Shown piece after piece: positions 5,500-18,600 of a DNA stretch of 32,710 bases (position 1 is the first letter of the stretch; each line of letters begins with the position of its first letter). The stretch comes from Chloroflexota bacterium (GTDB lineage Bacteria > Chloroflexota > Dehalococcoidia > Lucifugimonadales > UBA3495). Made by a program: the position numbers and the translations under genes. A model generated the notes under the pieces. It searched no databases, was not told where the DNA came from, and worked only from the letters and a program-made list of their open reading frames with translations. The stretch is taken from contig JAPPCX010000023.1 in assembly GCA_028875655.1 (NCBI GenBank), forward strand, positions 1 through 32,710, written 5' to 3'.

Positions 5500-6426
5500 G
5501 TGCCTGACCAAGAATTCGACGTACTAATCATCGGCGGCGGCATGGCCGGTCTGACTGCTGGCATCTACGCTTCCCGCTACGGCCTGAACACTGCCATCGT
5601 CGAGCAGATGATGGCCGGCGCACAGATCATCAACCTTGAGAAGATCGAGAACTTCCCCGGGTTCCCCCAGGGAATCGCCGGCTACGAGTTGGGGCCGGCA
5701 ACCCAGGAACAGGCCATGAACGCCGGAGTCGAGGTCCTGATGGACACCGTCACCGGCATATCGGTCGATGGCGATTACCTGCGCGTTACCGGGGACATGG
5801 GCGGGAGCTATCGTGGCAAAGCCGTCATCATGGCCGCCGGTTCGTCACTGAGGTCGTTGGGAATTCCCGGCGAGGAAGAGTTCGAGGGACGGGGCGTGTC
5901 CCACTGCGCCACCTGCGACGGCCCGCTGTACATGGGTCAGACCGTCGCTGTGGTGGGCGGCGGCGACTCTGCCGCGGACGAGGCCCTTACCCTAACCGAG
6001 TACACCGAACGGGTTATCCTTTTCGTTCGCGGCGATTCCCTGGACGCCCAGCAGGTTCTACAGGACCGCATCTCCGCGAATCCAAAGCTGGAAGTGCGGT
6101 ACGGGGCCGAGGTGGTGGAGATAGTAGGCGAGGATACCGTAACCGGCGTCCGGGTCCGCACTGCCGACGGCGAGACCGTTGAGCCGCTGAGCGGGCTGTT
6201 CATCTACGTGGGCCTTGATCCCAACTCGGCGCCGGTGGCCGATCTCGTTCCGCTTGACAATGCGGGACACATCCCGGTCGGCCTGTCCATGGACACCCCA
6301 CAACCGGGACTGTTCGCCGCCGGGGACATCCGGCAGCAGTCCGCCGCCCAACTGGTGGCGTCGGCCGGCGACGGAGCGACGGCGGCCATCGCGGCCGTTC
6401 GCTACATCAACGGCAAAGAGTGGTAA
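5500..6426 (+). CDS. trxB: Thioredoxin reductase-like NAD(P)H:disulfide oxidoreductase
   Basis: 308 residues, standard TrxB size. The FAD-binding motif is IIGGGMAGLTAGIYASRYG (residues 10-28), the redox-active pair is C136-A-T-C139, the NAD(P)H site is VVGGGDSAADEA (151-162), and the C-terminal FAD motif is GLFAAGDIRQ. It should reduce thioredoxin or a thioredoxin-like partner with NAD(P)H in the cytoplasm. The GTG start at 5500 has AGAGAGG 7 bases upstream. The next gene starts 9 bases after the stop, so the two are probably cotranscribed. A thioredoxin-like lipoprotein with a putative selenocysteine lies about 3 kb downstream but would be extracytoplasmic, so it is not an obvious direct partner. 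Confidence 0.92.
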   Translation: MPDQEFDVLIIGGGMAGLTAGIYASRYGLNTAIVEQMMAGAQIINLEKIENFPGFPQGIAGYELGPATQEQAMNAGVEVLMDTVTGISVDGDYLRVTGDMGGSYRGKAVIMAAGSSLRSLGIPGEEEFEGRGVSHCATCDGPLYMGQTVAVVGGGDSAADEALTLTEYTERVILFVRGDSLDAQQVLQDRISANPKLEVRYGAEVVEIVGEDTVTGVRVRTADGETVEPLSGLFIYVGLDPNSAPVADLVPLDNAGHIPVGLSMDTPQPGLFAAGDIRQQSAAQLVASAGDGATAAIAAVRYINGKEW

Positions 6427-9466: not shown

Positions 9467-10186
9467 ATGATTGCGCCGTATTGGACATTGCTCAGTGCTT
9501 GGCGTTCGCTGCCGCTCATCTTGGCGGCATTTGCCATTTTGCTGCTCGGCTGCGCCGGGCCGCAGTCTCAGCCGTCCGATTCCGACGGGCGCGCAGTGGT
9601 AGCGTCTTTGCGCCCCTTGGCCACGCCGGAACCCGCTTACCTGCAATATGAGAGCTGCCGGATTGACTTGGCGCTGGTGGCCCCCGCGCAGCCGGAATTG
9701 CTGGCCGGCGGCGCGGGGGCTAGCCCGTCGGCGGATACGACTCGTGCGCCGCTTGCTGCCGGCCAGCGGGAGGAGTCAATCGCGTTTCAAGCTCAATCGC
9801 TGGACGGCCGCCCCATATCTCTGGGCGATTCCTACGGCTCTCCTACTCTGCTGGTGTTCTGGGCTCCTTGGTGACCGCACTGTGGGCGGGAGTTGCCCGC
9901 CGTTGCCGCTCTTTACCGTGAGAAGCTGCGGGCTGCCGGCGTCCATGTCATCGGCGTTTCCCAGTACAGCACCACGATGGCGGAGACCTCCGCTTTCGCC
10001 GAACGCAATCGGCTGACATTTCCCAACCTGTACGACGCCAATGCGGAACTGGCCGCAGCCTACGATGTCCAAGCGCTGCCCGGCTACGTCTTCCTGGACC
10101 GGCAGGGAAAAATCTCCCAGCGCAGTTCCGGTGCCCGGGGCGTGGCTTTTATCGAACGTAGGCTCAACGAACTCCTTGCGGAATAG
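9467..10186 (+). CDS. TlpA/AhpC-TSA-like thioredoxin lipoprotein, candidate selenoprotein (UxxC)
   Basis: Read through one in-frame TGA (9872-9874), this gives 239 residues. The N-terminus is a lipoprotein signal: a hydrophobic stretch ending LLLGC, with the lipidated Cys at residue 29. A disordered linker follows, then a thioredoxin fold with LLVFWAPW-U136-PHC139-GRELP, VIGVSQYSTTMAE, the FPNLYDANAELAAAYDVQALP cis-proline segment and GYVFLDRQGKI. The TGA falls exactly at the first Cys of the CxxC active site, and the frame is intact on both sides (405 bases before, 312 after). A GC hairpin lies just 3' of it. The expected role is thiol/selenol redox chemistry on the outer face of the membrane. 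The alternatives are a Cys-to-stop mutation or a sequencing error. No selenocysteine machinery is visible in the window. Confidence 0.78.
9885..9901 (+). promoter_or_regulatory. Candidate bacterial SECIS hairpin
   Basis: GGCGGG (9885-9890) pairs perfectly with CCCGCC (9896-9901) around an AGTTG loop. The loop begins 17 bases after the in-frame TGA and has a G in its second position, within the described spacing for bacterial SECIS elements. The lower stem is weak, and GC-rich DNA often forms such hairpins by chance. Confidence 0.4.
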
Positions 10187-10874: not shown

Positions 10875-12014
10875 TCATTCCGGCCTTGAGCCGGAATCCA
10901 CCAATGCAGCGATGGCATCGGCCAAACGCACACAGTCCACCACAGGCCGCAGGCCGATGCGGATACAGTCCGGTAGGCCGAACGAGGCGCAGTCCCGCAC
11001 GAACAGTCCCTGCCGCGCCAATCGGTCGCGCAGTGCGGCAGCATCACCAACCTGGGCCAGCACGAAATTGGCCGCAGTCGGATAACACCGGATGCCCAAC
11101 GCTCCCAGGCGTTCGACTACGCAGTCTCGGGATGCCGCCACCGCCTGCCGCGCCCGCTGCAAATACTCAGCATCCGCAAGGGCCACTATCCCGGCCGCTT
11201 GCGCCAAGCCGTTCACGCTCCAGTCGGGTTGCAACGCCTGCAAACGAGCGATCACCGGCGGCGCGGCAATGGCATAGCCCAACCGCAAGGCAGTAAGCGC
11301 GTAGTCCTTGGTCATGGAACGCAGGGCTACCACGGAGCCATACCGCGCCGCCAGATTTATCACTCCGGCATCCGCATGGCGTTCCGACAGGTTGATGTAT
11401 GCTTCATCCACGACCAGCAGGCCGCCTACCCCCGCAACCGCGTCTGCCAACGCTGCGAGCTGTGATCGACTGATAAGCGCGCCGGTCGGGTTGTTGGGAT
11501 TGCATACAAAGGTCAGGGCGGGCCTTTCGGCTGAGATCAGTTCAGCAGCGACACCCATGTCCCACGAGAACCCCCGAGAACATCGGGTTGCCGTCAGCGT
11601 TACAACCTTCCCGCCCGCGATGCGAACCGCACCGTCGTATTCCCCGTAGGTTGGCGTCAGGAGGAGGGCAGCAGGGACATGGCCCGTGGAAGTTGCGATG
11701 TAGGCCCGGGTCAACAGGTGGATGATTTCCGTCGAGCCGTTGCCGACGATCACCGAGCCGGTCGCTACGCCATCCTCTACGTGATGGGCGGCAATAGTCT
11801 CGGTTAAGGCGAGGCAGTGGGGGTCTGGATATGCGGCCAGATCAACGGCGGCGATGGCTTCGGCAACGCCGGCCGGCGGCCCCAATGGGCTGACGCTGGC
11901 GGAGAAGTCCAGGCAGTCCTCCATGCGCATGCCCAGGGCACGCAGTTCCGCCTCCTTGATGCCGCCGTGGACGGGGCGGAGTGGAGCGGCGTCGTTGTCG
12001 GGTTGACTGCCCAT
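10875..12014 (-). CDS. cobD: HisC-like aminotransferase, probable L-threonine-O-3-phosphate decarboxylase
   Basis: 379 residues in the class I/II PLP fold. Visible motifs are VHGGIKEAELRALG at the N-terminus with LDFSASVSPLGPP, NGSTEIIHLL, FVCNPNNPTGALI, VVDEAYINLSE and the PLP-lysine region RSMTKDYALTALRLGYA. LDFSAS(I/V)SPLGPP is typical of CobD, which makes aminopropanol phosphate for the corrin side chain, rather than of HisC. The start at 12014 (MGSQPDND) is chosen because it lies 10 bases after the Uma2 stop; the ATG at 12143 would overlap Uma2. The final codons are formed by a repeat-like palindrome (10877-10897). Confidence 0.86.
   Translation of the reverse strand: MGSQPDNDAAPLRPVHGGIKEAELRALGMRMEDCLDFSASVSPLGPPAGVAEAIAAVDLAAYPDPHCLALTETIAAHHVEDGVATGSVIVGNGSTEIIHLLTRAYIATSTGHVPAALLLTPTYGEYDGAVRIAGGKVVTLTATRCSRGFSWDMGVAAELISAERPALTFVCNPNNPTGALISRSQLAALADAVAGVGGLLVVDEAYINLSERHADAGVINLAARYGSVVALRSMTKDYALTALRLGYAIAAPPVIARLQALQPDWSVNGLAQAAGIVALADAEYLQRARQAVAASRDCVVERLGALGIRCYPTAANFVLAQVGDAAALRDRLARQGLFVRDCASFGLPDCIRIGLRPVVDCVRLADAIAALVDSGSRPE
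10877..10897. repeat. Palindrome forming the 3' end of the cobD-type gene
   Basis: Arms ATTCCGGC / GCCGGAAT around CTTGA, preceded by CCGTC. It is related in form to the other GTCATTCC palindromes of this window and here encodes the last residues of the aminotransferase. Confidence 0.55.
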
Positions 12015-12024
12015 TTGCGAAGAA

Positions 12025-12612
12025 TCAGCGATTGCCGCGAGCCAATGCGCGAATGGGGTCGCCGAAAAGCTGCTCCAGCGGCAGCGCAAACCCCGGTATG
12101 GTCGCCGTGGTAAGGGTGTCATCGCGGCCCAGCCTTCGCTCAACGTATTCGCCCCCAGATAGTTCCAGGACAGTTAGAACGTCGTTGACCGGGTCCAGTG
12201 TCCAGTATTCGGGGATGCCGGCGCTGGCGTACAAATCTCGCTTCATCACTAGATCCCGGTTGCGGTCGGAGGACAATATCTCGACCACCAGGTCAGGTAT
12301 GCACTCAACGTAGCCGCTGTGAATCAGGTGCAGGTTCTCGGACCGCAGGTAGATGATGTCGGGCGTCGGCGCATACAAGTCGGACAACGCCAGACCGGTG
12401 TTGCTGAACGCCAACCCCGGTGCGGGCTGTACGGCCATCATCAGGTTATTAATCATCCTGACCAGAAAGTCCATGAGGAACTGGTGTTCAATTGTGGCCG
12501 GCAGCATTTGATACACCTCGCCGTTGATGAGTTCCCACAACCCCCCATCCGTTTCCGGCAGGTCGCGGTACTCGGCCAGCGTCATCTGCGTCCCGTCTTG
12601 TATGGTGGTCAT
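12025..12612 (-). CDS. Uma2 family protein (PD-(D/E)XK-like fold)
   Basis: 195 residues. The N-terminal MTLAEYRDLPETDGGLWELINGEV region, then PDIIYLRSE, the core PDLVVEILSSDRNRDLVMKRDLYASAGIPEYWTLDP and the C-terminal strand with a GFALPLEQLF ending are diagnostic of Uma2. The fold carries nuclease-type acidic and lysine residues (D and E of LVVEILS, K of VMKRDLY), but no biological role is established. The ATG at 12612 has AGAGG 6 bases upstream and is preferred over 12648. It sits inside the B12 operon between cbiB and the cobD-type gene, with no visible tie to cobalamin chemistry, and is probably a passenger. Confidence 0.88.
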   Translation of the reverse strand: MTTIQDGTQMTLAEYRDLPETDGGLWELINGEVYQMLPATIEHQFLMDFLVRMINNLMMAVQPAPGLAFSNTGLALSDLYAPTPDIIYLRSENLHLIHSGYVECIPDLVVEILSSDRNRDLVMKRDLYASAGIPEYWTLDPVNDVLTVLELSGGEYVERRLGRDDTLTTATIPGFALPLEQLFGDPIRALARGNR

Positions 12613-12649
12613 CTCGCACCTCTCACCCGGTTGGATGGGCGCCCTCATT

Positions 12650-13636
12650 CTACCACCACGGCCAGAAGGACCACCGCAGCCAAATGAGGCCGATTGCTAC
12701 CCCTGCGGACAGCACGGTAGTGCCGTATAGCGCGCGGGTTGCGTTGCCAATGTGCTTCGGCAGTGGTTCGGGCGCGGGGTCTCCCAGGCGATAGTGGCCG
12801 AGCTTTTCCAGCGTAACGCCCAGGCCCCCGGCCATGGCCGCCATGGTCCAGCCTGCGTTGGGCGACTCGGTGCGCCTGTGGTGCGCCAGCATGATGCGCC
12901 ACGCCGGGCCGGCGGCCATACCCGGCAGAATGGCGGTCGCTATCCAAAGCATCCCCGCAGCAAGCCGGGCAGGTATCAGGTTCACCAGGTCATCCAGCCT
13001 GGCAGATGCCTTCCCCAGGTATTCGTAACGACCGCGGTAGCCGACCATGCTATCCAGCGTGTTGATGGCGCGGTAGGCAACAGCACCGGGAAGACCGAAT
13101 AGGGCAAAGGCCAGCAGCGGGCCGACAATGCTGTCGGTGATGTTTTCAGCGACGGACTCGATCGCGCCGGCCGCCATCTGCCCTACGGTGAGTTGAGAGG
13201 TATCGCGGCTCACCAGGGCGGACATCTGCCGGCGCGCTGCATCAACGTCGCCCGATGACAAAATCCGCCCGACGTCGGCGGCGACGCGGTGCAGCATCCG
13301 CACCGAGAACGTGGACTTGAGCAAAGCTGCGACCACCACCAGATACGCCAACGGATGCAGTTGCATCAACCCGAAACTTGCCGCCCATGCCGCAGCAGCC
13401 CACGCCGCCGGTATCAGCAAGGCCATCACACCGCCGGCGGCCAGTTGGACGGTTGATGACGAATGCGGGCCCGGTGCGATGCGCTCCGCCAGCGCCACGG
13501 TTTTACCGATCCACACGGTGGGATGCAACCGGTTGGGCGGCTCGCTCAACGCCAGATCAAGCAGCAGCGCCAGCAACAGGGCCAGCGCGTCCAGGGGAAC
13601 GGGCAACGTGTTGATGGTGTGCCCCAGCGCGTCCAT
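12650..13636 (-). CDS. cbiB: Adenosylcobinamide-phosphate synthase (CbiB/CobD membrane protein)
   Basis: 328 residues with several membrane helices. Characteristic segments are ALLLDLALSEPPNRLHPTVWIGK near the N-terminus, GAIESVAENITDSIVGPLLAFALFGLPGAVAYRAINTLDSMVGYR in the middle, LGKASARLDDLVNLIPARL, and the NAGWTMAAMAGGLGVTLEK end. It attaches aminopropanol (phosphate) to adenosylcobyric acid at the membrane. The ATG at 13636 abuts the cobS stop at 13638, indicating translational coupling. Its substrate is supplied by the cobD-type enzyme two genes downstream. Confidence 0.94.
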   Translation of the reverse strand: MDALGHTINTLPVPLDALALLLALLLDLALSEPPNRLHPTVWIGKTVALAERIAPGPHSSSTVQLAAGGVMALLIPAAWAAAAWAASFGLMQLHPLAYLVVVAALLKSTFSVRMLHRVAADVGRILSSGDVDAARRQMSALVSRDTSQLTVGQMAAGAIESVAENITDSIVGPLLAFALFGLPGAVAYRAINTLDSMVGYRGRYEYLGKASARLDDLVNLIPARLAAGMLWIATAILPGMAAGPAWRIMLAHHRRTESPNAGWTMAAMAGGLGVTLEKLGHYRLGDPAPEPLPKHIGNATRALYGTTVLSAGVAIGLIWLRWSFWPWW

Positions 13637-13637
13637 T

Positions 13638-14519
13638 TCAGTAGGCCGAGTAAGAGAACCAGCCGTACTCGAGAGCGAAGGGCCAACGGAATTCCGTCAA
13701 AATCCCTCCCCCGTAACCTATGGTGAACCCCATCCCGTCCAGTTCTAGGCGCCACAACAGGATCAGCAGCAAAACCAGCGCCAGCGTTTCCATGATCTCA
13801 TTGGCCGCGCCGTAGCAATCACCCGTCAACCCTCCCCCCAGTCGCCTCGAAGCCCTCCAGCCCAAGAGCAACGAAACGACCGAGACCACGACCAAGGTCA
13901 CGATTCCCGCCAGCCCCAGCAAGAACCACGCTACGGCAGCTACGGTAAGCAAGGCAAATCCGGTCGCCAGCCACGGCCTCCCGCTCGACGCAAACGCGCT
14001 GCCGATTCCCTGCGGCCGGCCGTAGGGGAAAACGGTCAGCAGCAGCGTCATCGCCCACCGTGCCACGACTGGGAAAAACAGTAATCCACCCAGGCCCGGC
14101 ACCATGGTCAACAGCGAAAGCAACGCTGAGTATTTGACCAGCAACACGCTCACGCATCCGGCCACAGCGAACGAGCCCACGCGCGAATCACGCATGATCT
14201 CCAGCCGCCGTTCCACCGTATGGCCCCCCCACATGGCGTCGCAAAAGTCCATCAGGCCGTCGAGGTGCAGAAACCGATTTGCCGCCGCCATCGCCATCAC
14301 CAGCAACGCCGCCAGGACGGGTGTAAAAACCGGCGCCCCCAAGGCCAGCGCCCACAGCAACACCAACCCCAGCAGCAGCAGGCCGTACAGCAAACCCACC
14401 AACGGGTACCAGCCCCGGGATCTGGAAATCTCGACGTCGGTTGCGGATGAGAGCCCGACCGGCAGTATGGTAAGGAACGAGAGCGCTACCAGAAGCGGGG
14501 CGTAGATGGCTCGAATCAC
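13638..14519 (-). CDS. cobS: Adenosylcobinamide-GDP ribazoletransferase (cobalamin synthase)
   Basis: 293 residues with multiple membrane helices. The N-terminus (ALSFLTILPVG) and the motif FLHLDGLMDFCDAMWGG, followed by ERRLEIMRDSRVGSFA, are diagnostic of CobS. The acidic residues of HLDGLMDFCDA bind the Mg needed for joining adenosylcobinamide-GDP with alpha-ribazole (phosphate). It follows cobT with a 17-base gap and abuts cbiB. The C-terminal tail after about residue 245 is longer and more hydrophobic than the minimal family core. Confidence 0.94.
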   Translation of the reverse strand: MIRAIYAPLLVALSFLTILPVGLSSATDVEISRSRGWYPLVGLLYGLLLLGLVLLWALALGAPVFTPVLAALLVMAMAAANRFLHLDGLMDFCDAMWGGHTVERRLEIMRDSRVGSFAVAGCVSVLLVKYSALLSLLTMVPGLGGLLFFPVVARWAMTLLLTVFPYGRPQGIGSAFASSGRPWLATGFALLTVAAVAWFLLGLAGIVTLVVVSVVSLLLGWRASRRLGGGLTGDCYGAANEIMETLALVLLLILLWRLELDGMGFTIGYGGGILTEFRWPFALEYGWFSYSAY

Positions 14520-14536
14520 TTTCAGAGCAGAGAGCG

Positions 14537-15604
14537 TTAGTCGTCGCGGTCGGAGACGCCGGCTTCGGCGAAGCTTGCCATTTCGGACAGGATTTTCGCG
14601 GATGCCTCCACGATGTGCATGGCCAATGCCGCGCCGGTACCCTCGCCCAGGCGCATTTCCATGTCGAGCAGCGGCGACAATCCCATAGCCTGCAATCCCA
14701 CGTTATGGCCGGGTTCCACGGAGCGATGAGCTGCGATGTACCGATCAGCGATTTGCGGGCAGAGCCGCCACGCGATCAATGCCGCCGCTCCGCTGATGAA
14801 TCCGTCCACGATGACGGCGCAGTTGCGGGACGCCGCGCCCAGCATGACGCCGGCCAGCACGCCGATCTCGTATCCGCCGACCTTGGCGAGCACGTCCAGC
14901 CCGTCGTTTCCGTCGGGCCGGTTCACTTCCAGGGCACGGCGGATGGTGGCGATTTTGGCTGCCAGCGCATCGTCGTCAACGCCGGTGCCGCGCCCGGTCA
15001 CCGTGGCACCGTCGGCGCCGGTGATGGCGGCGGTGATGGCGGCGGATGGCGTGGTGTTGCCAATACCCATGTCGCCGCCGGCGATGAGGTTGGCCCCGGC
15101 GTCGGCGCTGGCGTTGGCCGCCTTGATGCCGATTTCCAGGCACCGTACCGCATCGTCGCGGTTCATGGCGGGGCCGACGGCGATGTTTGCGGCCCCGTAG
15201 CCGACCTTGGCGATGGTGAGGCCGGGCTGCGGGTCGAGGTCAACCGCTACGCCGGCGTCAATTACGGTGATGTTTGCGCCGGCGTGTCTGGCCAGAGCGT
15301 TGATGGCCGCGCCACCGGCCAGGAAATTGAACACCATCTGGGGCGTAACTTCGGCGGGGTAGGCCGAGACGCCCTCGGAGGCGACGCCGTGGTCGCCGGC
15401 GACCACGATGACCGCCTTGCCGGTAATTTGCGGGATCGGCTCCCCGAAAATCCCAGCAAGTTGAATCGACAGGGATTCCAGCCGGCCCAAGCTGCCGGGC
15501 GGCTTGGTCAATACACCCTGCCGGGCCTCGGCGGCGGCTACGGCTGCGGCGTCCAGCGGGCCGATGGCGGCGATGGTCTGGTCAACCGATGTGGAGATGG
15601 TCAT
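14537..15604 (-). CDS. cobT: Nicotinate-nucleotide--dimethylbenzimidazole phosphoribosyltransferase
   Basis: 355 residues, standard CobT length. Motifs include TKPPGSLGRLESLSIQLAGI (around 34-53), VVAGDHGVASEGVSAYP, FLAGGAAINALARHAG, GGDMGIGNTTPSAAI and the catalytic Glu321 in RLGEGTGAAL. It makes alpha-ribazole phosphate from nicotinate mononucleotide and dimethylbenzimidazole, or another base. No bluB or bza gene for base synthesis lies in the window. It is followed by cobS after 17 bases. Between it and cobO is a 51-base gap holding a dispersed-repeat-like sequence. Confidence 0.95.
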   Translation of the reverse strand: MTISTSVDQTIAAIGPLDAAAVAAAEARQGVLTKPPGSLGRLESLSIQLAGIFGEPIPQITGKAVIVVAGDHGVASEGVSAYPAEVTPQMVFNFLAGGAAINALARHAGANITVIDAGVAVDLDPQPGLTIAKVGYGAANIAVGPAMNRDDAVRCLEIGIKAANASADAGANLIAGGDMGIGNTTPSAAITAAITGADGATVTGRGTGVDDDALAAKIATIRRALEVNRPDGNDGLDVLAKVGGYEIGVLAGVMLGAASRNCAVIVDGFISGAAALIAWRLCPQIADRYIAAHRSVEPGHNVGLQAMGLSPLLDMEMRLGEGTGAALAMHIVEASAKILSEMASFAEAGVSDRDD

Positions 15605-15606
15605 AC

Positions 15607-15650
15607 TGTCACCCTCACCCTAGCCCTCTCCCATCAAGGGACAGGGAACA
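15607..15650. repeat. Dispersed-repeat-like sequence between cobO and cobT
   Basis: On the plus strand it reads CACCCTCACCCTAGCCC, then TCTCCC, then CATCAAGGGACAGGGAAC. This resembles the CCCTCACCCTA-type intergenic repeats common in many bacterial genomes, with a short CCC/GGG fold. Identification is by resemblance only. Confidence 0.35.
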
Positions 15651-15655
15651 AATTT

Positions 15656-16225
15656 TCAGAATTCAATCCCCGGTTGTGCCTTGATACCGGCGTCATAGGG
15701 ATGCTTGACCACGTTCATCTCGGTGACCAGATCGGCGTACTCCACCAGGGCTTCGGGAGCATGGCGGCCTGTGATGATGACGTGCTGCATCTCAGGACGG
15801 GCTTTGAGGGCGTCAATCACGTCCTCAACGGGCAGCCAGCCGTAGTGCATGGGGTAGGTGAACTCGTCCAGGATCACTAGGTCGTGTTCGCCGGAAGCGA
15901 TTACTTCCTTGGCGTCTTCCCACAGGGCGCGGGCCAGATCGGCGCTGGCTTCCAGATCCTGGGATCGCCAGGTGAAACCGTCGCCCATGGCGCGCACGGT
16001 CACGCCCATTTTTTCGGCGGCGCGCTGCTCGCCGAAGTTGGCAGTGGTGTGCTTGATGAACTGGAGCATGATCACCTTCATGTCCCGGCCCCAGGACCGC
16101 ATGAGCACTCCCATGGCGGCGGTGGTTTTGCCCTTGCCGTTGCCGGTGTTGACGATTACCAGCCCCTTGTTGATGCGAGGGCCGCGCACGGACTGGGGGC
16201 CGTGGCGAGTTTCTTGCGTTGTCAT
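15656..16225 (-). CDS. cobO: Cob(I)yrinic acid a,c-diamide adenosyltransferase (CobA/CobO type)
   Basis: 189 residues. The P-loop is [13 protein letters not shown] (residues 27-39), followed by [33 protein letters not shown] and [22 protein letters not shown], all diagnostic of the CobA/CobO family. It transfers the adenosyl group from ATP to the cobalt of corrinoids. The ATG at 16225 has AGGAG 8 bases upstream, 25 bases after the cobB stop. The N-terminus carries the short basic extension usual for aerobic-type CobO. Confidence 0.95.
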
Positions 16226-16250
16226 TTGGAGGTCTCCTTATGCGAGGAAA

Positions 16251-17624
16251 TCATCCGCCGGATGTGGCGGCGCAGGTATCAACGAAGCGGCGGGCAAGGC
16301 CGGGCCGACTGCCCAGGTGGACGTGGATGTAGGAGGCCCAAACGCTCCCTTGTCTGAACCCTTCAGGTCGGCCGGCCTGGTTGACCACGCGGTAGGCGGC
16401 GGATTCTTCGCCGGGCGGATTCTGGAGCACCGACCAATGAAACTCATGGCCACGCACCTGCTCGCCGGCGCGGAGTAATGGCCCCTCGGCGCAGGCTTCC
16501 ACCTCACGGTAGCCGAGATGCAGTCGCCTGCCTTCCATGGATGACACCACGGGGATCGCGCCCACCATGGGGAACTGCCGGCCGTCCAGATCCGAAAGGC
16601 TTTTGCCCAGGTACATGAGGCCGCCGCACTCGCCGTACACCGGCAAGCCGCGCTGGATCGCGGACCGGATGGAAGGGAGCATGCCATCGTTGCGGGAAAG
16701 GTCCTCCGCGAACAGCTCGGGAAAACCGCCGCCCAGGTAAACGCCGCTCACGCCGTCAGGCAGGCCCGAGTCATCAAGCGGCGAGAACGGAATTACCTCG
16801 GCGCCCCAGGCCGAAAGCAGGTCCAGCGAGTCCTGGTAATAGAACGAAAAGGCGCGATCCCGTGCCACGGCGATGGCGGCGCGGGCCGGCTGACGTTCAT
16901 CGGGGAACACCTGCGAACCGGTATTGGACGGTCGGCCGGCGGTTTTGGCGATGCGGACGATGGCGTCAAGGTCAATGGTCTGCTCGATCTGGGCGTTGAG
17001 CGCGTCGTACCATTCGCTGAGCACCGTGCCCTCGACGGTGGGTATCAGGCCGAGATGGCGCTCCGGCTGAATCAGGTCATCGCGGCGGGGCAGCCAGCCG
17101 ACCACGGGCAGGCCGGTGGTGGCTTCAATCTGCGGCTGGCAGAATTCCAGGTGCCGCTCGCTGCCGACGCCGTTGAGAATCACGCCTGCGATGCGTAGGT
17201 CGGGGTCGAACTGCTGATAGCCCAACACTTCGGCGGCCACGCTGCGGGCGACCTTGCCGGCGTCGGCTATGAGAATTACGGGGGCGTCCAGCAGCTTGGC
17301 AAGCTCGGCGGTGGAGCCGTCTTCGTCAAGGGAAGAATGGCCGTCGAAGACACCCATGACACCCTCAACGACGGCGATGTCTGCTGCGCCGGCCGCGCGG
17401 TGGAATAGCTCAGCAGCGACGGGATGGGGGAGCAGCCAGGTGTCCAGGTTGCGGGAAGGCACGCCGCACGCGATAGTGTGATACGTGGGATCAATGTAAT
17501 CGGGGCCCGCCTTGAAAGGCTGCACGCGCAAGCCCCGGCGGGACAGCGCTCCCATGACGCCGCTGGCGATGGTGGTTTTGCCGACCCCTGAGCGCACGCC
17601 GGCGATGACGATAGCGGAGGTCAT
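16251..17624 (-). CDS. cobB: Cobyrinate a,c-diamide synthase
   Basis: 457 residues. The N-terminal dethiobiotin-synthetase-like ATPase has the Walker A AGVRSGVGKTT (8-18), then KAGPDYIDPTYH and GVMGVFDG. The C-terminal class I glutamine amidotransferase domain has YLGGGFPELFAEDL and the nucleophile Cys333 in PVYGECGGLMYLG, with the histidine in SYIHVHLGS near the end. It amidates the a and c carboxylates of cobyrinic acid using glutamine and ATP. The ATG at 17624 lies one base after the stop of the upstream unknown gene, so the two are tightly coupled. This family is named CbiA in anaerobic pathways. Confidence 0.94.
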   Translation of the reverse strand: MTSAIVIAGVRSGVGKTTIASGVMGALSRRGLRVQPFKAGPDYIDPTYHTIACGVPSRNLDTWLLPHPVAAELFHRAAGAADIAVVEGVMGVFDGHSSLDEDGSTAELAKLLDAPVILIADAGKVARSVAAEVLGYQQFDPDLRIAGVILNGVGSERHLEFCQPQIEATTGLPVVGWLPRRDDLIQPERHLGLIPTVEGTVLSEWYDALNAQIEQTIDLDAIVRIAKTAGRPSNTGSQVFPDERQPARAAIAVARDRAFSFYYQDSLDLLSAWGAEVIPFSPLDDSGLPDGVSGVYLGGGFPELFAEDLSRNDGMLPSIRSAIQRGLPVYGECGGLMYLGKSLSDLDGRQFPMVGAIPVVSSMEGRRLHLGYREVEACAEGPLLRAGEQVRGHEFHWSVLQNPPGEESAAYRVVNQAGRPEGFRQGSVWASYIHVHLGSRPGLARRFVDTCAATSGG

Positions 17625-18282: not shown

Positions 18283-18365
18283 AACGATGGCGGGTCGGCT
18301 TTCGAGGGGAGCCCCAGGCACAGCCGGGTTCGTCCGCCCACTCGTTCCACGAAGTGCAGCTGGAA

Positions 18366-18600
18366 CACACCCGCTGGCAGGCCTCCTGGCTGATGGCTGT
18401 AGCGACGCGCCTCCGCCTTCCCATCCGCTTGATAACGAACAGTGGCTGGAACCGGGGACTGGAGATCAATCCCGGTTGGAGGGCGTCTCGCCAATTACAG
18501 TGGCGGGACCGCACCGGATTTGCACCGGATTTCCTTTTCAGCTCGCCTTACGCCGCACTGTCGCAGCGACGGACGAGCCACCGGCGGGAGTTGGTGGATT
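18366..18600 (-). promoter_or_regulatory. Cobalamin (AdoCbl) riboswitch
   Basis: Read on the minus strand, the leader contains AAAGGAAATCCGGTGCAAAT, then GGTGCGGTCCC and the B12 box GCCACTG (18504-18498). Further on are GGGAAGGCGGAGGCG, GCCATCAGCCAGGAGGCCTG and CC. These are the conserved core blocks of the cobalamin riboswitch. It heads the B12 biosynthesis operon and is followed by an intrinsic terminator. High B12 is therefore expected to terminate transcription before the first gene. The boundaries are approximate, especially the 5' edge. Confidence 0.95.

Follow-up and report, generated by a model that had tools for sequence, protein, structure and literature searches.

A predicted ResA/TlpA-like selenolipoprotein defines a genus-restricted thioredoxin subfamily in Chloroflexota

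Introduction

Thioredoxin-like and peroxiredoxin-like selenoproteins with a UxxC active site are abundant in marine metagenomes (PMC2398784), where the original prediction for the present locus had placed the UxxC thioredoxin-like ones, and the UxxC selenoproteins of the thioredoxin fold have been catalogued as cd02966, PF00578 and PF08534 types (PMC13188914). The same source lists NF041057, the Rcas_1661 family, as DsbG-like with a UxxC motif, and models the bacterial SECIS (bSECIS) as a stem of 4-16 bp with an apical loop of 3-9 nt, a G in the first two loop positions, a UGA-to-loop distance of 16-37 nt and a minimum free energy of at most -7.5 kcal/mol (PMC13188914). In the literature on sponge or Chloroflexi selenoproteins, we found nothing specific to the family described here. 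The member studied here lies in a window of 32,710 nucleotides, the entire contig C3 of a 123-contig assembly (3.45 Mb, 97%-complete) of a Chloroflexota bacterium. Standard annotation splits this gene in two, and the active site is lost.

Results

Examination of the open reading frames showed that the frame starting at ATG 9467 is open to the TAG stop at 10184-10186 apart from a single TGA at 9872-9874, which confirms the predicted pair of open stretches reading WAPW-TGA-PHC. With the TGA read as selenocysteine (Sec), the gene (9467..10186, + strand) encodes 239 residues, and the read-through product runs MIAPYW...LLLGC-AGP..., then a linker, then ...LLVFWAPW-U-PHCGRELPAV.... Its first section (9467..9553, +; sequence MIAPYW...LILAAFAILLLGC) is a signal peptide ending in the lipobox L-L-G-C, with the lipobox cysteine at residue 29. 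The signal and lipobox that characterize bacterial lipoproteins are kept in relatives: a hydrophobic-x-G/A-C lipobox, judged by sequence, occurs across the aligned homologues for which the N-terminus is covered. Judging from this signal sequence, the protein would be exported and attached to lipid. A low-complexity, Pro/Ala/Ser-rich linker follows (9554..9766, +), with pLDDT below 50 over most of its length and PTYTPRP-type repeats in most relatives.

The remainder (9767..10183, +; residues about 101-239) is a ResA/TlpA-type thioredoxin domain of the AhpC-TSA/Redoxin group according to Pfam, AlphaFold and Foldseek. The Pfam AhpC-TSA match extends across the TGA (residues 105-218, 3e-23, 82.4 bits against a gathering score of 26) and Redoxin matches as well, so that the fold does continue past the TGA as had been proposed. 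From residue 100 onwards the AlphaFold model has a high pLDDT (about 85-96), and in Foldseek it most resembles ResA proteins (TMt 0.84-0.88). ResA is also among the nearest solved structures by sequence, together with a pneumococcal thioredoxin that is a surface lipoprotein. The putative Sec codon (9872..9874, +) specifies residue 136, the first position of the active site W-A-P-W-U-P-H-C, and a helix begins immediately after it at residue 137. The codon of the resolving Cys 139 of the UxxC motif (TGT, 9881..9883, +) is invariant in all homologues, as is Pro 205 at the cis-Pro position. A Pfam score above gathering, the thioredoxin fold, an active site placed where a helix begins, and the cis-Pro position together mark the protein as TlpA/ResA-like.

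The nearest named database record is a homologue with 85% protein identity (L057) from the metagenome-assembled genome 'Chloroflexi bacterium isolate SB0662_bin_27', around which the gene neighbourhood is kept from a methyltransferase through CbiB. A cobalamin riboswitch (window 18359-18600, - strand, 93 bits) lies beside an apparent cobalamin biosynthesis cluster on the minus strand (about 10875-17624).

To compare the codon among relatives, we searched 99 related genomes. Every close homologue from the same genus holds exactly one TGA, and it falls at the same codon in 21 of 21 genes from 14 genomes, namely the source genome and the 13 others of the genus sampled; cysteine occurs at this codon in none of the 21, and the stop position does not vary. 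Since the TGA is shared by 21 genes in 14 genomes, three of them single-contig (G003, G007 and G010), it is not a sequencing error. Outside the genus, identity falls to ~30-35% for the best matches in the family, order and phylum, and these carry Cys, with the exception of a separate WASWUGC type; the in-frame UGA thus occupies a redox position that aligns with Cys in homologues, as expected of a selenoprotein gene. The 20 Sec genes form one group with 100/100 support in an unrooted tree that also includes a limited sample of 40 Cys sequences, as would fit one change from Cys to Sec with later duplication. One same-genus genome carries two selenoprotein genes of the family in tandem (L098, G008:C144:39500-45500), with the divergent motifs WAPWUERC and WAPWUGYC. 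Elsewhere in the order, other families have two WASWUGC ResA-like candidates of the known UGC type (L099 and L100). A TGA in a distant match from the phylum (L131) was set aside: it sits upstream of an ordinary CPDC protein, outside the coding part.

Substitution rates were compared on either side of the TGA. Against the 86%-identical orthologue, dN is lower than dS on both sides, with dN/dS at 0.45 upstream and 0.12 downstream (downstream dN 0.04, dS 0.34), and against four more distant relatives the downstream dN is less than half of the upstream dN; therefore, the part after the TGA is the more constrained of the two. The frame after the TGA is also intact in all full-length homologues. This comparative sequence evidence demonstrates in-frame translation beyond the UGA.

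A GC stem-loop had been predicted to start 11 bases after the TGA, and the hairpin GGCGGG-AGUUG-CCCGCC does have its first paired base at the 11th position. Its core (9885..9901, +) comprises a 6-bp stem (9885-9890/9896-9901) and the apical loop AGUUG (9891-9895). The hairpin, of 6-7 bp, stands 16 nt from UGA to loop and passes all published bSECIS criteria (5-nt loop with G at position 2, 6-bp stem, 16-nt spacing, -12.9 kcal/mol). In isolation, the 25 nt fold to -12.9 kcal/mol against -6.9 for shuffles (z -2.5), 195 of 200 of which are less stable, whereas the energy in a 54-nt window is unremarkable against shuffles (z -0.16). Since that energy alone is ordinary, the case for the hairpin rests on conservation and not on stability.

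Three of the hairpin's base pairs have changed at both partners among the 15 sequences compared. None of 500 shuffles attains the observed covariation score or count of compensated cells, and every slid register scores lower than the true one; two of the five measures do not stand out, being reached by 38 and 64 of those shuffles. The CGGC-type paralogues pair only in a register shifted by one base, and this makes the RNAalifold consensus of the full set of 15 a weak one (-4.35 kcal/mol). Synonymous codons within the hairpin are frozen (Arg is CGG in 20/20 and Leu is TTG in 20/20), while the rest of each gene uses various Leu and Arg codons, and in the window's ORFs TTG makes up 18% of Leu codons and CGG 30% of Arg codons. 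These counts come from related genes and are non-independent, yet dS is 0.8-1.7 against all but the nearest relative, i.e., most synonymous sites are highly diverged. The Cys homologues (n=40) show no such hairpin, and their mean energy at this place is -4.0 kcal/mol, compared with -11.7 for the Sec genes. An Rfam search of the hairpin region returned a chance match only. The conservation and compensatory changes seen across the family demonstrate RNA-level selection on this predicted SECIS.

The genome encodes the complete Sec apparatus for which a search had been proposed. A tRNA-Sec with a UCA anticodon (selC) was found on contig C63 (66.4 bits), and selA (C52, 553 bits), selB (C40, 361 bits) and selD (C89, L053, 378 bits) all score above curated cut-offs; selD has an in-frame TGA of its own in the motif CAGUAAK. 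Matches to the tRNA-Sec model over the cut-off occur in 54 of 60 related genomes, although those below about 55 bits may be tRNAs with a long variable arm. A second match in the source genome (G000:C2:15408-15495, - strand, 54.9 bits) was rejected as selC, having the anticodon loop CUGUAAA and not CUUCAAA, and is probably such a tRNA.

We sampled the selenoproteome of this genome through one family, the AhpC-TSA-type genes, and found an in-frame TGA in 6 of 11. Four have it in a UxxC motif: the window gene, a paralogue on C72, a lipoprotein-like TWUPEC gene on C52 and a GVWUPYC gene on C31. A thioredoxin-NHL-like gene on C2 has its TGA at CUxxC, and a peroxiredoxin gene on C111 at the probable peroxidatic position. 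The five further candidates, on C111, C31, C2, C52 and C72, correspond to loci L083, L089, L090, L091 and L087, respectively. A hairpin with an AGUUG-type loop follows the TGA in five of the six genes, the window gene included, and in four of these at 16 nt (i.e., in four of the other five candidates, three with that spacing); the stem in the TWUPEC gene has only 3 contiguous pairs. By comparison, 0.5% of random TGAs (n=4,024) have an AGUU-capped stem of >=4 bp in range.

Discussion

Taken together, the evidence leaves little doubt that the gene encodes a selenoprotein, which we predict to be an exported, lipid-anchored thiol-disulfide oxidoreductase of the ResA/TlpA-like kind with U136 of UPHC as its nucleophilic residue. 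The central proposal of the original prediction, that the TGA encodes Sec in an extracytoplasmic lipoprotein, is accordingly upheld by the Sec genes, the genus-wide TGA and the conserved hairpin, and UGA recoding is well supported by comparative evidence. Considering the Sec machinery and the hairpin, insertion would depend on SelB: a SelB-GTP-Sec-tRNASec complex would recognise the A-G-U-U-G loop 16 nt past the UGA, and Sec would be inserted there during translation, while a product made without insertion would end at residue 135, ahead of the active site. From fold and motif, the U-x-x-C pair would then cycle outside the membrane between selenenylsulfide and selenol/thiol forms, and disulfides or other oxidised molecules at the cell surface would be the substrates that it reduces.

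Other readings of the TGA fare poorly. A single substitution turning TGC or TGT into TGA would account for one genome, leaving an ordinary CPHC thioredoxin, but the same codon in 14 assemblies, single-contig genomes and within-genome paralogues among them, refutes a sequencing or assembly error and makes it vanishingly improbable. It is extremely improbable that translation truly stops at residue 135 and that what follows is a separate gene or a remnant in decay. An in-frame TTG at 9893 does give a mechanical downstream ORF of 97 aa; however, a product restarted there would be without the active site, and the downstream frame is both intact in full-length homologues and under stronger constraint than the upstream part. 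Finally, UGA could be read as Trp, Cys or another residue through suppression or a code change, and in-frame TGAs do recur in the genome. We consider this very improbable, since TGA is an ordinary stop in 6 of the 23 window ORFs, the in-frame TGAs examined align with Cys at redox-active positions, and the full Sec apparatus is present together with a SECIS-type hairpin.

A further alternative concerns function only and is compatible with Sec, namely that the protein is the thioredoxin of cytochrome c maturation (ResA/CcmG) in a Sec version and reduces apocytochrome c. ResA is the closest solved structure and the genome encodes cytochrome-c-assembly proteins. However, that role already has a candidate, because a Cys homologue with the motif WASWCGPC (C44:2092-2505) lies ~3 kb from a Cytochrom_C_asm gene (C44:5667-6266). 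In addition, at 78.5 bits the protein falls far short of the 170-bit cut-off of the NCBIfam ResA model (NF002854), which places it outside that family. We therefore regard a cytochrome c role for this selenoprotein as unlikely.

How an exported selenothiol would be kept reduced is a testable question raised by this genome. The DsbD_TM (DsbD/CcdA) and VKOR families had no match in the 97%-complete assembly, despite several extracytoplasmic thioredoxin-like lipoproteins. Three kb upstream of the selenoprotein gene is a thioredoxin reductase-like gene (5500-6426, +) with a CATCDG motif, 97% conserved in the same-genus genome G006; it is not adjacent to the selenoprotein gene, has no visible signal peptide and is possibly linked to thiol metabolism. 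Tentatively, these always-Sec, surface-tethered thioredoxins, which are genus-wide and multicopy in several genomes and of which no Cys version was found, might belong to an extracytoplasmic selenium redox system that lacks DsbD/CcdA yet is fed by some electron donor.

The original prediction also held that a TlpA-like selenolipoprotein would be unusual and would imply Sec metabolism in this lineage. The Sec metabolism was found; the novelty was overstated, as UxxC TlpA-like types and NF041057 were already known. With both the thiol-disulfide isomerase-like and Trx-like 1 selenoproteins (cd02966, COG0526) and the Prx-like thiol:disulfide oxidoreductases (PF00578) of marine metagenomes and deltaproteobacteria, the family shares the TlpA/AhpC-TSA-group thioredoxin fold, Sec as the first residue of UxxC and a SECIS directly downstream (PMC2398784, PMC13188914, PMC1794560). 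The present family differs in being a genus-restricted clade with a lipobox and a long tether, to which individual catalogued metagenome sequences may belong. Members of NF041057 are likewise thioredoxin-like (seleno)lipoproteins with Sec in UxxC, but that model matches only 1 of 18 family members weakly (E 0.006) and leaves the window protein unmatched at E 0.01. The locus for which it is named, Rcas_1661, is from Roseiflexus, also of the Chloroflexota. The ResA-like, UGC-containing TlpA family NF041054 (WAxxUGC_long) has Sec at the same position of a ResA-like domain, but its motif is UGC and not UPHC, and our protein scores 50.7 bits against its cut-off of 300. The Bacillus ResA structures, including the CPHC variant 3c71, share the fold as noted above, but have Cys in place of Sec and are only 24-27% identical. 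The family is therefore new as a subfamily, restricted to its genus, but belongs to a kind of selenoprotein already known: a Chloroflexota clade of predicted Sec thioredoxins that brings with it natural covariation data for a bacterial SECIS.
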